From Desulfarculaceae bacterium (GTDB taxonomy: Bacteria > Desulfobacterota > Desulfarculia > Desulfarculales > Desulfarculaceae), in the NCBI GenBank assembly GCA_020444545.1, contig JAHLKT010000009.1:1-63742 (forward strand): 63,742 nt of DNA. Reading direction: 5' to 3'. The notes beneath the pieces were generated by a model, which worked only from the letters and a program-made list of their open reading frames with translations, made no database searches and was not told the origin of the DNA. Positions within the stretch are counted from its first letter, which is position 1. Each line of letters begins with the position of its first letter. The position numbers and the translations under genes are program-made. Shown here in pieces: positions 45,215 to 56,916 of this stretch.

Positions 45215-46381
45215 CTAGATCATGGAGTCGGCCAGCTCGTTGATCACGTCGTCCGGGTTTTGCCCCGCCCTCTCCATGCGCGCGATGTTCTTTTCCAGGT
45301 CCACGCGCAGGCCCATGCGGTCCACGTCGCGGGGCTCGCGGCAGCGGCCCATGCGGCGGCACAAACGGTAAAGAAGGCGCTCGCGGTCGGGCAGGTTCAG
45401 GTACTCGTCCAGCTTGGCCAGCAGGGCGGGCTTGTCCTGGGGGAGCTGGCCGTTCACCGTCTCGATGAGGTTCATGATGTGGTCGGAGGCCACATAGCTG
45501 GTGATGCCGTCCAGGGTCTCGATGAACAGGCGTATCTCGGCGGCCACCTCGTCGTCGCTGATCTTCTGGAATGCGCCGGATTGCAGGTCCTGGTACAGCT
45601 CGATGCGCGGCGGCACGCGCAGGGTGCGCAAACGAATGAAGTCCGGGTTGATCTGGTTGAGCACCTCGGCCGTGGCGATGGCGTGCTCGCGGCTCCACTC
45701 CTTGCCGCCCAGGCCGGGCATCACGTACTCGCTAAGTTCCATGCCCGCGGCCTTGACGTTCTGGCCGCCCTGGATCTGCTTGGCCGCGGTCACGCCCTTG
45801 TTCATGAACTTGAGCAGCGGGTCGTAACCGGTCTCCAGGCCGATGTGGATGCGGTCCAGGCCAGCCTCGCGCAGCATGGTCAGCTCTTCCACGCTGCGCT
45901 GGGCGGCGGTGGAGGAGCGGGCGTAGGTGGTTATGCGCTTGGCCTCGGGCAGCTTGGCACGCAGATAGTTGAGCGCCTCGGCCAGCACCGCCGGCTTCAT
46001 CACCAGGTTGTTGGCGTCCTGCAAGAACACGTTGCCCGTGTTGTAGTAGAGCCAGGCGGCCACGTTGTGGAAGGCGTGGCTCAGGCGCGGGTTGGAAAAC
46101 ACCGCGTTGACCACCGGCGTGCTGATCCGGCCGTGCTCGCCCATGGCCGAGGACAGCTCGATGATCTCGCGGCGCATCTCGGCCGCCGCGTCGATGTCGG
46201 CCTTGATCTCCTCCAGGGAGCGGCGGGAGAAGGTGCGGCGCTTGTACACCGGGCAGAACTTGCACTTGTTCCAGGGGCAGTTGCGCGTGAAGCGTAGCAG
46301 CAGGCTCTGCGCCTCCGACGGCGGGCGGATGGGGCCTTGCTCAAAATCCAAGGACGTGTCCAGGGCGGGTAGCGCGGTCAC
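45215..46381 (-). CDS. radical SAM protein
   Basis: 388 residues. The cluster motif is NCPWNKCKFCPVYK, so Cys spacing is C-x4-C-x2-C rather than the usual C-x3-C-x2-C. Later GLETGYDPLLKFMNKGV and YVMPGLGGKEWSREHA are typical of HemN/Elp3-type radical SAM barrels. GTG start with AGGAG about 8 bases upstream, preceded by a plausible promoter. Reaction unknown; a modification or biosynthetic role is likely. Confidence 0.85.
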   Translation of the reverse strand: MTALPALDTSLDFEQGPIRPPSEAQSLLLRFTRNCPWNKCKFCPVYKRRTFSRRSLEEIKADIDAAAEMRREIIELSSAMGEHGRISTPVVNAVFSNPRLSHAFHNVAAWLYYNTGNVFLQDANNLVMKPAVLAEALNYLRAKLPEAKRITTYARSSTAAQRSVEELTMLREAGLDRIHIGLETGYDPLLKFMNKGVTAAKQIQGGQNVKAAGMELSEYVMPGLGGKEWSREHAIATAEVLNQINPDFIRLRTLRVPPRIELYQDLQSGAFQKISDDEVAAEIRLFIETLDGITSYVASDHIMNLIETVNGQLPQDKPALLAKLDEYLNLPDRERLLYRLCRRMGRCREPRDVDRMGLRVDLEKNIARMERAGQNPDDVINELADSMI

Positions 46382-46447: not shown

Positions 46448-46551
46448 GGATGGCGGGCGGGAGGGGCGGTGGGTTATGATGGGCGGGCTGTAATTAAGGC
46501 AAAAAAGAGAGAAGAAGAAAAGCAGGTTGGGTGGGAAAGAAGGGGGGCGTT

Positions 46552-47655
46552 GTGGCTAATCCGGAGCACGTGAAGATTTTGAAGCAGGGAGTAAAGGTTT
46601 GGAATAGGTGGAGGAAAAATAATCCGGACATAAAGCCTGATCTCTTCGAGGCAGATTTTGCCAACGCCGATCTTACCGACGCTAATCTCGATGGAGCAGC
46701 CCTCATCCGGGCGAACCTCGCAAATGCTAACCTCAACAGAACAAGTCTCGTCCGTGCAAGCCTCACCGAAGCGAATCTTGTCGATGTAAGCCTCACAAAT
46801 GGAAACCTCACCGAAGCGAATCTCAGGATGGCGCATCTCATTGATGCTAATTTTTCTGGTGGGAATTTCCACAAAGCAGACCTCAGCGATGCAAACCTCA
46901 TGGATGCAAAACTTATTGAAGCGGAACTTGTCAAAACGAATCTCAACAAGGCAGTGCTTTATGATGCAAATTTTTCTAGAGCTAACGTCAAGGGGGCGAA
47001 CCTGAGTGATGCCGAAGTTGGATGGACAGTATTTGCAAATTTAGATTTAAGTAAGGCAATTGGCTTGGAATATGTTAAACACGAAGGCCCGTCAACAATC
47101 GGCATCGACACCATCTATCAATCCAAAGGCGATATTCCCGAATCATTCCTTCGCGGCTGCGGCGTTCCGGAAGACCTCATCAAGCTCATCCCTTCTCTAC
47201 TTTCACAACCTTTTGACTTCTACTCTTGCTTCATCAGTTACTCGTCCAAAGATGACAGTTTCTCGCGCCGCTTATACGCCGACTTACGCGAATCAAAAGT
47301 CCGCGTCTGGTTCGCGCCCGAGGACATGAAAATTGGCGACAAAATCAGAGAGCGGATAGACCAGACCATACGCATCCACGACAAGCTCTTGCTCGTCCTT
47401 TCAGAACAATCCATTGAAAGTCAGTGGGTGGAGAAAGAGGTGGAGACTGCCTTTGAGCAGGAACGGCGCAACCCAGGAAAGACCGTTCTGTTCCCCATCC
47501 GCCTCGACGATGCGGTGATGGAAACCAACAAAGCCTGGGCCGCCGACATCCGCCGCACCCGCCACATCGGCGACTTCACGGACTGGAAAGACCACGACTC
47601 ATACAAAAAGGCCTTCGACCGCCTGCTGCGCGACCTCAAGGCCTCCGAGAAATAG
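46552..47655 (+). CDS. pentapeptide-repeat and TIR-domain protein
   Basis: 367 residues. The N-terminal leader MANPEHVKILKQGVKVWNRW precedes a right-handed pentapeptide-repeat helix (about 31-170, pattern A[D/N]LxxANL). A linker with GPSTIGIDTIYQSKGDIPE (179-197) is followed by a TIR domain (about 223-340). The TIR domain keeps FISYSSKDD, the WFAPEDMKIG BB-loop region and W292-VEK-E296, where E296 matches the catalytic Glu of NAD-cleaving TIRs. GTG at 46552 with AAGGGGGG upstream gives a family-like start; GTG at 46531 is possible. Base composition is clearly more AT-rich than neighbours, suggesting transfer. Confidence 0.85.
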   Translation: MANPEHVKILKQGVKVWNRWRKNNPDIKPDLFEADFANADLTDANLDGAALIRANLANANLNRTSLVRASLTEANLVDVSLTNGNLTEANLRMAHLIDANFSGGNFHKADLSDANLMDAKLIEAELVKTNLNKAVLYDANFSRANVKGANLSDAEVGWTVFANLDLSKAIGLEYVKHEGPSTIGIDTIYQSKGDIPESFLRGCGVPEDLIKLIPSLLSQPFDFYSCFISYSSKDDSFSRRLYADLRESKVRVWFAPEDMKIGDKIRERIDQTIRIHDKLLLVLSEQSIESQWVEKEVETAFEQERRNPGKTVLFPIRLDDAVMETNKAWAADIRRTRHIGDFTDWKDHDSYKKAFDRLLRDLKASEK

Positions 47656-47672: not shown

Positions 47673-47700
47673 GCCCCCGGGTCCGCGTGAACCCGGGGGC
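47673..47700 (-). terminator. minus-strand hairpin terminator (distal)
   Basis: GCCCCCGGGT and ACCCGGGGGC form a 10-bp stem. On the minus strand it is followed by TTGGTTTTTT. It sits just beyond the TIR gene stop and would also block read-through from the right. Confidence 0.7.
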
Positions 47701-47871: not shown

Positions 47872-49011
47872 CTAGAGCTGCTCGGCGATGATCTCGGCCA
47901 GGTCTTTGACCTCCAAGGTCTCGTCAACGTTCTCGCCCTTGGCGCTGTCCACGAACATGTTGATGCAGTAGGGGCAGCAGGTGGCCAGCACCTCGGCGCC
48001 CTTGTCCACCGCCTCGCGGATCTTGTGGGTGCTGAAGCGCTGCTCGGGCTCGGTCTCCATCCACAGGCGGCCGCCGCCGCCGCCGCAGCACATGGCCATG
48101 CCCTTGTTCTTGCCGAACTCCATGCGCTCGGCGCCGCAGGCATCGATGAGCTCGCGGGGCGCGTCGAAGACCTTGCTGTGACGTCCCAGGTAGCAGGGGT
48201 CGTGGTAGATGACCTTCTTCTCGTAGCCGCCCAGGCTCAGCTTGCCCTCGTCCAGGAGCTCTTTGAGCAGTTGGGTGTAGTGCACCACCTCGAACTCGCC
48301 GCCGAACTCGGGGTATTCCTGGGTGAAGGTGGTGAAGCAGTGCGGGCTGGTGGTGATGATCTTCTTCACGCCCTTGTCGTTGAACAGGTTGATGTTCTTC
48401 TCGGCCAGGCCCATGAACTGCTCTTCGTCGCCCATCTTGCGCAGAGCCTCGCCGCAGCAGGACTCCTCGTTGCCGATGATGCCGTAGCTCACGCCCGCCG
48501 CGTTGAGAATCTTGACCAACGCCTTGGCGATGGCCTGGGAGCGGGGGTCGTAGGCCGAGGTGCAGCACACCGAAAGGAAGTACTCCTGGCTGCCGTCGAA
48601 CTTGGGCACGTCCAGGCCCTCGGTCCACTTCTCGCGCTTGTCGCGCGGCTCGGACCAGGGGTTGCCCTGGGAGTGGATGGAGCCCATGATGGTGCGCAGC
48701 ATGGCCGGGGCCGCGCCGGTCTCGGCGATCATGGCCCGCATGGCCCGCACCACGTCGATGATGGCCACCTCGCGGGGACAGTTCTCCACGCACAGCTTGC
48801 AGGTGGTACAGGCGTAGAGGATGTCGTCGGACTCGAAGCCCTCCAGGCCCAGCTGGCCCATTTTGATGAGCTGGCGGGTGCGGAAGGGGCTTTCCACCGC
48901 GGGCCAGGGACACAGGCCCGAACACAAGCCGCATTGCATGCACTGGTAGAGGGTCTCGCCGCCCATCAGGGCGATGGCCTCGCTAACCTCCAAAAAGGGC
49001 GTGGCGGGCAT
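47872..49011 (-). CDS. HdrD-like (Fe-S)-binding oxidoreductase
   Basis: 379 residues. Two 4Fe-4S sites: C24, C27, C30, C34 and C68, C71, C74, C78. Two CCG domains follow, with C149/C150...C185/C186...C225 and C273...C308/C309...C345/C346...C349, the pattern of heterodisulfide reductase subunit D and glycolate oxidase GlcF-like proteins. No membrane helix. It likely carries out electron transfer on thiol/disulfide or 2-hydroxyacid substrates; no partner subunit is adjacent. ATG at 49011 with GGAG 9 bases upstream; an ATG at 49053 lacks a site. Confidence 0.88.
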   Translation of the reverse strand: MPATPFLEVSEAIALMGGETLYQCMQCGLCSGLCPWPAVESPFRTRQLIKMGQLGLEGFESDDILYACTTCKLCVENCPREVAIIDVVRAMRAMIAETGAAPAMLRTIMGSIHSQGNPWSEPRDKREKWTEGLDVPKFDGSQEYFLSVCCTSAYDPRSQAIAKALVKILNAAGVSYGIIGNEESCCGEALRKMGDEEQFMGLAEKNINLFNDKGVKKIITTSPHCFTTFTQEYPEFGGEFEVVHYTQLLKELLDEGKLSLGGYEKKVIYHDPCYLGRHSKVFDAPRELIDACGAERMEFGKNKGMAMCCGGGGGRLWMETEPEQRFSTHKIREAVDKGAEVLATCCPYCINMFVDSAKGENVDETLEVKDLAEIIAEQL

Positions 49012-49092
49012 ATGTAGTATCTCCTTGTCTATAATCAGCCGAAGCGCGCCCACCTCCCCTGGGCGGCGCGCCGATCATGCGGGTGCCCCGAA

Positions 49093-55113: not shown

Positions 55114-55496
55114 GCCGGCCCCTGGTGCTGTTGGTGGAAGACGACCAGGACATCGCGGCCCTGTACAGCGCGCTGCTGGAGGCCGAGGGCATGACCGTGG
55201 TGCATTGCCTGGACCGCCAGCAGGCGGACCGCTGGTGGCACAACGCCGAGCGCCGGCCGGACCTGGTGGTGCTGGACGTACGCCTGCCCGACGGCTCGGG
55301 CCTGGAGCTGTGCAGCGACCTGGGGGGCCTTTGCGAAAAATCCTCTCTCCCGCCCATAATCGTGCTCAGCGCCCACGGCGACCCCCGCATGCCTTCCCTA
55401 TGCCGCCAGGCCGGGGCGGCGGCCTTTTTGGACAAGCTGGAGAATTTGGACAACCTTGTCTATAAGGCTAAGGAATTATTGGACAATCAAGCTTAA
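55110..55496 (+). CDS. single-domain response regulator (receiver only)
   Basis: 128 residues. Receiver only: acidic ED11/D12, phospho-acceptor D56 in LVVLDVRLPDGSG, Ser/Ala switch in VLSAHG and the Lys in AAFLDKLE. No output domain, so it acts through protein contact or phosphorelay. ATGA overlap with the kinase gene gives strict pairing. Confidence 0.88.
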   Translation: MSRPLVLLVEDDQDIAALYSALLEAEGMTVVHCLDRQQADRWWHNAERRPDLVVLDVRLPDGSGLELCSDLGGLCEKSSLPPIIVLSAHGDPRMPSLCRQAGAAAFLDKLENLDNLVYKAKELLDNQA

Positions 55497-55880
55497 GACT
55501 TTTTTAGTCCGCCTTTTTAGGGCAATTCTACCCGACAAACTCCCCCAAATTATAGCATCGGCAATTTATTACCGTTTTTTTTCGGGCTATTTCACCTGTT
55601 AATTTAATTGGCATTTAGAAGCAAACTCTTATGCCAGGCAGCCCGATTTGATTCGCCCAACCGGCCTAATCCGGACGCCTCAATTTAGATTAATTTTTTT
55701 GCTGTGTTCTTAGGTGGTTGAAAAAGAGATCCCCGGCGAGAGCACAAAAATATGCGCGCCGCCTTTCACGATCTCCCTGCCTGCCCCTCTAGGGAAAACG
55801 ATCCAGAACGACGCGCACGGCAATTAAAGGTGCAATACGCGGGCCAGAATTGGCCGAGCTTATCTTTTTTGCATGACAAA
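55497..55880. other. AT-rich intergenic region
   Basis: About 380 bases before the terminator at 55881. It is markedly AT-richer than the window (runs such as TTAATTTTTTTGCTG) and carries one terminator-like hairpin near its start. No reading frame with coding character was found on either strand. Confidence 0.5.
55559..55582 (+). terminator. intrinsic terminator of the kinase/receiver pair
   Basis: CGGCAA-TTTA-TTACCG forms a short stem with one mismatch followed by eight T at 55575-55582. Confidence 0.7.
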
Positions 55881-55912
55881 GGGGCCGCCGGACGTCCAGC
55901 GTCCGGGGCCCC
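55881..55912 (-). terminator. hairpin terminator of the SurA-like gene
   Basis: GGGGCC-GCCGGACG and CGTCCGG-GGCCCC arms around TCCAG. On the minus strand CCCCTTTGTC follows, a modest T-run, 18 bases after the stop. Confidence 0.6.
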
Positions 55913-55929
55913 TGGTTGGCTTGATGGGG

Positions 55930-56916
55930 CTAATCGATTATCTTCACGTAGTTTTTTGCCCGCAGGTCCTTGATCCACTCCCGGAAGCGTTTCTCGGTGG
56001 TCTCTCGTTCCAGCTTCTGGCGAATCTGATCCTTGACCGCTTGGAGCGGCAAACCTTTGTCACCGCTGCGCTCGGTGAGCTGCATGATCACGAAGCCCTG
56101 GGGAATCTGCAAAACCTCGCTGACCTGGCCGGGCTTGAGCTCGCCCAGGGCCTGGCGCATGGAAGGCAGAAGGTCAGAAGCCTTCACCGGCCCCAGCTGC
56201 CCTCCCCGCTCGGCCCCCGGCCCCTGGGAGTTCTGCTGGGCCAGCTTGCCGAAGTCCTCGCCGTTCTTGATCTTGGTCAGGATGTTCTCGGCCTTTTGGC
56301 GCACCGCGTTCTCGCCGGCCAGGCTGGTCTTGTCGTCCACCCTGAGGAAGATGGCCCGGATCTGAACCTCGTCCAGGTTCTGGTACTGCTCCTTGTGGTC
56401 CTTGTAGTACTTCTCCACGTCCGCGTCGGTGACCACCACCAGCTTCTTGACTTCCTGGTTGATCAGCCGCTGCTTGAGGATGTCATTGCGCAGGTTGTTG
56501 CGGTACTCCTGGAGGGTGAGCCCCTGGCGGCTCAGGCTGGCCACGAAGTCCTCATCGGTGAGGTTGTTGGACTTCTTCACCCGGTTGATGTAATGGTCCA
56601 GCTCGGCGTCGGGGACCACCAGCCCGGCGCGTTTGACCTCCTTGGCGAAGATCTTGTCGTCGATCAGCCGTTCCAGGGCCAGGCGCCGGATCTGGGTGGG
56701 AGGCATCCCCCCGCTGCCCGGCTGGGTGGCCTCCATGCGGGCCAGGTCCATCTTCACCCGCTTGATGGAGCGGTCCAGGTCCAGGGAGGTGATCACGTCG
56801 TCGTCCACGATGGCCACCACCCGGTTGACCACCTGCTCGGCCGCGGAGGCCAACATGGCCGGCGCGATCAACAGAACCGCCAGAACAAGGCTAAAGATAA
56901 GGCGTCGTAGCATCAT
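55930..56916 (-). CDS. SurA-like periplasmic peptidyl-prolyl isomerase/chaperone
   Basis: 328 residues with signal peptide (about 1-25, ending LASAA). SurA N-terminal chaperone region (VNRVVAIVDDDVITSLDLDR) and one parvulin domain (about 165-275) with AQQNSQGPGAERGGQLGPV and GQVSEVLQIPQGFVIMQL. Assists outer-membrane protein folding. Its ATG overlaps the preceding gene stop (ATGA). Confidence 0.88.
   Translation of the reverse strand: MMLRRLIFSLVLAVLLIAPAMLASAAEQVVNRVVAIVDDDVITSLDLDRSIKRVKMDLARMEATQPGSGGMPPTQIRRLALERLIDDKIFAKEVKRAGLVVPDAELDHYINRVKKSNNLTDEDFVASLSRQGLTLQEYRNNLRNDILKQRLINQEVKKLVVVTDADVEKYYKDHKEQYQNLDEVQIRAIFLRVDDKTSLAGENAVRQKAENILTKIKNGEDFGKLAQQNSQGPGAERGGQLGPVKASDLLPSMRQALGELKPGQVSEVLQIPQGFVIMQLTERSGDKGLPLQAVKDQIRQKLERETTEKRFREWIKDLRAKNYVKIID

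Follow-up and report, generated by a model that had tools for sequence, protein, structure and literature searches.

The window, a 63,742-nucleotide stretch of contig JAHLKT010000009.1 from a Desulfarculaceae bacterium, carries a plus-strand gene for a protein in which pentapeptide repeats are joined to a TIR domain. The gene begins at the GTG codon at 46552, which is the start common to its relatives (MANxEH...), rather than at the upstream GTG at 46531, and it is the sole one of its kind in the window genome (G000). The locus comprises the following features.

45215–46381, minus strand: radical-SAM protein gene, first border of the genomic slot (profile match and slot comparison)
46447–46420, minus strand: promoter-like site, probably of the radical-SAM gene
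46475–46480, plus strand: candidate −10 box TATGAT inside GGGTTATGATGGG, a shared upstream motif that starts at 46471
46540–46547, plus strand: ribosome-binding-site-like AAGGGGGG (from the sequence)
46552–47655, plus strand: pentapeptide-repeat/TIR gene, 367 amino acids, GTG start (Pfam and alignment of relatives)
46552–46641, plus strand: N-terminal head (helical cap), residues 1–30 (alignment and structure model)
46642–47046, plus strand: pentapeptide beta-helix, residues 31–165, 27 units, the hypervariable module
47047–47211, plus strand: helical linker of 55 residues with FLRGxGxP, conserved in the alignment
47212–47652, plus strand: TIR domain, residues 221–367 (Pfam, alignment, fold and sequence matches)
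47425–47439, plus strand: WxxxE motif, W292 to E296 (alignment)
47700–47673, minus strand: terminator-like hairpin, possibly a remnant of small minus-strand genes found there in G003–G006
47852–47820, minus strand: terminator-like hairpin, probably of the CCG-domain gene
47872–49053, minus strand: CCG-domain/4Fe-4S (HdrD-like) protein gene, second border of the slot (profile match and slot comparison)

A Pfam search of the protein returned Pentapeptide in four stretches (1.1e-28) and TIR_2 (3.6e-24), in agreement with the fusion described in the initial annotation, and both residues of the W292-x3-E296 motif are found at the positions it gave. Alignment of 27 sequences divides the protein into four parts: a head of about 30 residues with the consensus MANxEHLxILxQGVxxWNxWRxxNPxxxPDL, a pentapeptide rod, the 55-residue linker, in which F199, R201 and G204 are invariant, and the TIR domain. 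E296 is present in all 27 sequences and W292 in 24, the tryptophan being absent from the copies in G005, G010 and G013; among the aligned relatives, W253 and W345 do not vary, nor do parts of the linker. An AlphaFold model (mean pLDDT 89, with 97–99 in the repeats) exhibits two head helices, a long beta-helix, short linker helices and a TIR fold, with weaker prediction for the TIR stretch 261–276 and for the joint at 219–223. Tandem A(D/N)LXX units forming a quadrilateral beta-helix, the hallmark of pentapeptide-repeat proteins, are recovered by Pfam, by the model and by fold searching.

The closest solved folds to the TIR domain include those of the SPARTA protein TIR-APAZ (Z 16.6 over 125 residues, rmsd 1.9) and Cat1 (Z 14.5), both of which also share its TIR NADase motif. 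By sequence, solved TIR chains match at 1.4e-8 to 2.9e-8, with 7uwg best and the NAD(+) hydrolase AbTIR of Acinetobacter next (2.9e-8), and W292 and E296 align with the WxxxE motif of both chains. The glutamate of WxxxE is the catalytic residue of AbTir. In SPARTA, Glu77 has the role of catalytic glutamate (PMC11156904). Judged from sequence, the domain is probably NAD-destroying, and the intact catalytic-glutamate motif is consistent with the earlier designation of the protein as a TIR effector. AbTIR and other bacterial TIR NADases, however, carry no pentapeptide module.

Neither NCBIfam nor PADLOC yielded a family match to the whole protein, and the PADLOC matches fall in the TIR part only. 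Assignment to Thoeris was rejected because the ThsB_TIR match is weak (3.7e-5) and the adjacent genes encode the radical-SAM and CCG proteins rather than ThsA. SPARTA requires APAZ and a short Argonaute, whereas the N-terminal part of the window protein consists of pentapeptide repeats, without APAZ, and no Argonaute gene is adjacent. The CBASS arrangement TIR-SAVED was also set aside, since the SAVED_TIR profile matches only within the TIR part (231–316) and no cyclase gene adjoins. Cat1 is a CRISPR-associated effector bound by cA4, and the window gene has no such partner.

The gene had been noted as clearly lower in G+C than its neighbours, and the numbers bear this out: 0.502 (GC3 0.59) compared with 0.64–0.73 (GC3 0.85–0.94) in ten neighbouring genes. 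A codon-usage test concurs, giving a neighbour-trained codon adaptation of 0.257 for the gene and 0.57–0.76 for the neighbours. The contrast is uneven within the gene, where GC3 is 0.46–0.48 in the repeat part and 0.74 in the TIR part. The other low-G+C stretch in that part of the window, 55496–55930, is intergenic.

The initial annotation also placed the gene between a minus-strand promoter and two minus-strand terminators. Such sites exist, but their numbers are near those expected from shuffled sequence (one promoter-like site versus 0.9, and three terminator-like sites versus 2.1). They suit the minus-strand neighbours, not the TIR gene, and the TGTCAAGG box of the promoter-like site also occurs in species that lack the TIR gene. 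On the plus strand, exact TATGATGGG precedes the gene in G000, G001, G004, G005 and G007, with a near variant in G002. The GGGTTATGATGGG-type motif is found in all six carriers of the genus and in neither non-carrier (G003 and G006).

We searched for both border genes in 13 related genomes. The TIR gene is present in six of the eight sampled species of the genus, with two copies that look broken. Both borders enclose it in G000, G001 and G005. In G002, G004 and G007 it lies at contig ends, next to one border or both, and in G003 and in G006, a single-contig genome, the slot is without it. G010, from another genus, has a relative of like orientation next to its radical-SAM gene, and a further 13 kb or so separates this relative from the other border. 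The tree of the border proteins places G002 as the earliest branch of the genus and G003 as the next, with modest support, so that the distribution of the gene is most simply explained by a single ancestral gain followed by losses in G003 and G006.

The conserved slot and the upstream sequence shared across the genus speak against recent acquisition of the whole gene, and low G+C is a standing feature of the gene at this slot. The earlier proposal of an acquired gene thus gives way to a gene that keeps a single position throughout the genus, was lost from some species and looks broken in two. The comparison of close relatives that had been suggested as a check yields a shared slot with a gene that is not universal. 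Vertical inheritance in close relatives, which had been named as evidence against an acquired effector, holds for the slot but not simply for its alleles.

Several slots exhibit further irregularities. The G002 gene is split between linker and TIR domain (end of L105 and start of L106, on contigs C2 and C49), and TATAAAA is present on both contig pieces with related inverted ends beyond; these contig ends suggest interruption by an insertion sequence with target duplication. One in-frame TAA interrupts the gene of G007 and could be a sequencing error. Contigs C21 (L104, 1–60) and C40 (end of L103) of G004 have exactly 60 identical bases just before the TIR gene, beyond which they carry different alleles of the gene start, so that the gene is either duplicated in tandem or present as two strain alleles at which the assembly broke. 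The slots of G005 (L101) and G006 (L094), and also of G003 and G004, carry on the minus strand, beside or instead of the TIR gene, genes for one or two small secreted proteins (MKK...QGEKLVRDLWALFAAKD...) that look NTF2-like by eye, and the hairpin at 47673–47700 may be a relic of such genes. The 14-kb slot of G010 (L099) additionally contains, by eye, a carbon-monoxide-dehydrogenase-like gene and a trypsin-like-peptidase-like gene of 40% G+C.

The rod differs between species far more than its surroundings. Between the window genome and its sister G001, identity is 83–88% in the flanking DNA and 86% in the non-coding DNA that precedes the gene. A blastn match between the two breaks off inside the head, at 46633, and is taken up again at 47026, with 80% identity, from where it extends past the gene; the unmatched interval, 46634–47025, is the rod. 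The two rods comprise 27 and 23 whole units. Across seven slot genes, rod lengths are 135, 115, 110, 105, 90, 85 and 150 residues, each divisible by five (30, 27, 23, 22, 21, 18 and 17 units when ranked), while head and linker (55) are constant in length. Amino acid identity between slot genes is 22–49% in the rod, 57–85% in the linker and 75–86% among TIR domains of the common type. More widely, the rod spans 50 to 155 residues and is an exact multiple of five in 20 of 24 relatives.

Within single genes, rod and TIR GC3 are 0.46 and 0.74 in G000, 0.80 and 0.75 in G001, and 0.21 and 0.83 in G010; over the five slot genes measured, rod GC3 (0.21–0.80) and TIR GC3 (0.59–0.83) do not track each other. 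The TIR tree groups G001 with G004 (99/95), whereas the border-gene tree groups G001 with G000 (100/100), and G005 and G010 have in common a divergent TIR type without the tryptophan. Because of this conflict between the trees, together with the rod and GC3 mismatches, either alleles were exchanged at the slot or old paralogues were sorted. Our reading is that alleles are exchanged at the slot, above all the repeat module. No DNA donor of the window rod was matched in 59 related genomes. Synonymous divergence (dS) is 0.18–0.24 in the two border genes and 0.68–1.9 in the modules, a contrast that is inflated by strong codon bias in the border genes. Positive selection measured by dN/dS was dropped because the repeat alignment is unreliable and synonymous change is near saturation.

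Proteins that share the head but not the TIR end provide a control for this variability. The same head is found on Ion_trans_2 channels (with a TLGFGD-type filter), on an uncharacterised C-terminal domain and on rods alone. In the channel proteins (L064, L121 and L126–L128), head and rod resemble those of the window protein, a two-helix channel C-terminus replaces the TIR domain, and the rod is conserved between species: rods of sister species are equal in length and 84–89% identical, close to the value for the channel ends. The pair G013/G016 offers both types, with channel-linked rods that are 89% identical and equal in length and TIR-linked rods that are 45–58% identical and range from 10 to 22 units among the pairs compared, although the latter genes are partly paralogues and thus a weaker control. 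Rod length also varies in the type with the uncharacterised end (152 versus 137 residues in one pair). The conservation of channel-linked rods demonstrates that hypervariability is no general property of pentapeptide rods with the shared head. The sensor or scaffold role that the initial annotation gave the repeat helix finds support in the hypervariability of the rod relative to these channel controls.

We give about an even chance to the reading, drawn from sequence comparison, that the gene by itself encodes a suicide-type TIR effector, with the pentapeptide beta-helix as its variable sensing part. A phage-made or otherwise foreign molecule would bind the beta-helix, and the TIR domains would then cluster and cleave NAD+. 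The infected cell would thereby stop growing, at the invading phage's cost, and fast change of the beta-helix would track changing targets. The activation step is modelled on SpbK of Bacillus subtilis ICEBs1, a single-gene TIR NADase that the phage portal protein YonE activates by bringing TIR domains together, according to the available sections of its description (PMC12847820). SpbK likewise consists of one gene with an N-terminal part followed by a C-terminal TIR domain, and activation by clustering is a likely further similarity. Those same sections, however, mention neither a pentapeptide beta-helix as its N-terminal domain nor a variable module of such a kind. Replacement of the rod between species with retention of the rest of the gene is the pattern expected of an immune receptor with a fast-changing sensor, and the losses and broken copies in the genus fit a costly effector. 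Counting against this reading, PADLOC offers no family for the whole protein, three copies have no tryptophan in WxxxE, and ordinary genes surround most relatives; variation of the rod could also stem from weak constraint instead of selection.

The main rival, which we hold to be unlikely but the one deserving most weight, is weak constraint on a spacer. Here the protein would be a TIR scaffold or signalling protein with no role in defence, whose TIR domain signals or self-assembles on an internal cue and whose beta-helix drifts freely. Surface positions of a solenoid tolerate change, the neighbours are mostly housekeeping genes, and three relatives lack W292. The channel control speaks against free drift, as the same-head channel rods, including those of G013 and G016, stay constant in length and sequence, and so does the strict retention of E296, W253 and W345 and of stretches of the linker.

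That the gene is mobile-element cargo, or a recent low-G+C import with no settled role, is improbable. Low G+C, atypical codon use, integrase genes near three relatives and a plasmid relative disrupted by insertion sequences would suit such an origin, but six species of the genus share the slot and the upstream sequence, which largely refutes it for the gene as a unit. Moreover, a pattern scan of 2.9 million viral contigs found no relative, and no place in phage and plasmid records covers 80% of the protein. Relatives were found in Desulfarculaceae, Nitrospinota, Chloroflexota, Acidobacteriota, Planctomycetota, Pseudomonadota, SAR324 and Verrucomicrobiota, most of them among ordinary genes rather than in evident defence islands.

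Neighbour clustering over 28 loci found no gene that recurs in more than three, tyrosine recombinases being among those that reach this level. No recurring partner gene thus emerges from these loci, which supports the earlier description of a stand-alone, single-gene system. Among 126 neighbours counted with PADLOC and Pfam, type I restriction genes and integrases occur at few loci only, and without a control set we claim no enrichment. The restriction genes adjoin two loci outside the family (L026 and L040), and in L026 the relative lies directly behind hsdM-hsdS-hsdR. Next to the Chloroflexi relative, a second gene (L024:2822-3514) combines a coiled-coil-like N-terminus (RRLQKLKEQEARYGYSVDPHIPLEIEDIE) with a closely related TIR domain that follows it; by eye only, this N-terminus resembles conflict-system adaptor domains. 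Plasmid pSR-5 of Skermanella rosea (L130:853-4609) carries a pentapeptide fragment and a linker-TIR fragment with two IS256 transposase genes between them, probably a disrupted relative.

Also improbable, and more so, is a role as guard of gyrase or some other DNA enzyme, in which the beta-helix would mimic DNA, as those of Qnr and MfpA do, and an attack on the guarded enzyme would set off the TIR domain. HetL, NP275/276, Qnr and MfpA share the right-handed quadrilateral beta-helix of the window rod but lack a TIR domain, and Qnr and MfpA act on gyrase. The rod does match the structures of Qnr, MfpA and AlbG (Z 18–22), yet the highest values of the search (Z 24–27) belong to designed and cyanobacterial pentapeptide proteins, and the NCBIfam Qnr model scores 37.6 bits on the window protein, far under its cut-off of 240 bits. 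Rod length varies from 85 to 150 residues, and charge balance in six slot genes ranges from −9 to +1 (18 acidic and 10 basic residues in the window gene, 10 and 11 in G005). There is no steady negative surface, and DNA mimicry by the rod is unsupported by charge.

Some pathogens use TIR proteins against host signalling, but an effector sent into other bacterial or host cells, with the variable rod as its recognition part, is very improbable here, as no signal peptide is apparent in the sequence, no secretion genes are among the nearest neighbours, and the relatives are spread broadly over many environmental phyla.

TIR effectors, pentapeptide proteins and the combination of pentapeptide repeats with conflict domains are already known. 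Conflict systems with vWA, TRADD-N and Orc/CDC6 components join pentapeptide repeats to effector-type domains, as the window protein does; in the available portions of these reports, their pentapeptide proteins belong to NTPase or TRADD-N systems and a head-rod-linker-TIR arrangement is not described (PMC7159879, PMC8195603, PMC10853773). Our literature search, with most subscription papers outside its scope, found no description of a pentapeptide-TIR defence protein or of rod replacement.

Tentatively, the preferred reading of the window protein as a single-gene TIR effector might extend to a modular class of single-gene immune receptors, with a shared head, a rod swapped or rebuilt in whole units for specificity, and interchangeable ends (a TIR NADase, a potassium-channel-like pore or the uncharacterised domain). 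Ion-channel ends on the same head fit an alternative effector that damages membranes. If such a class exists, the cue sensed by the conserved channel-linked rods would be constant, and the one sensed by TIR-linked rods would change. Pentapeptide repeats, familiar mainly for protecting gyrase, would then be a fast-changing recognition rod in bacterial innate immunity, in a role comparable to that of the variable repeats of eukaryotic receptors. The slot offers a natural allele series (17–30 units) with near-constant heads and linkers and mostly one TIR type, so that module-swap tests of specificity are directly possible.

The uncharacterised end (GEFExxY...) occurs on the same head and rod at L049:10873-12084, L067:4112-5173, L117 and L120, with no convincing Pfam match. 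Contig C72 of G016 (L048–L050) carries several pentapeptide genes within 45 kb, two of them of the head-rod-linker-TIR type, and this family is expanded in the genus of G016.
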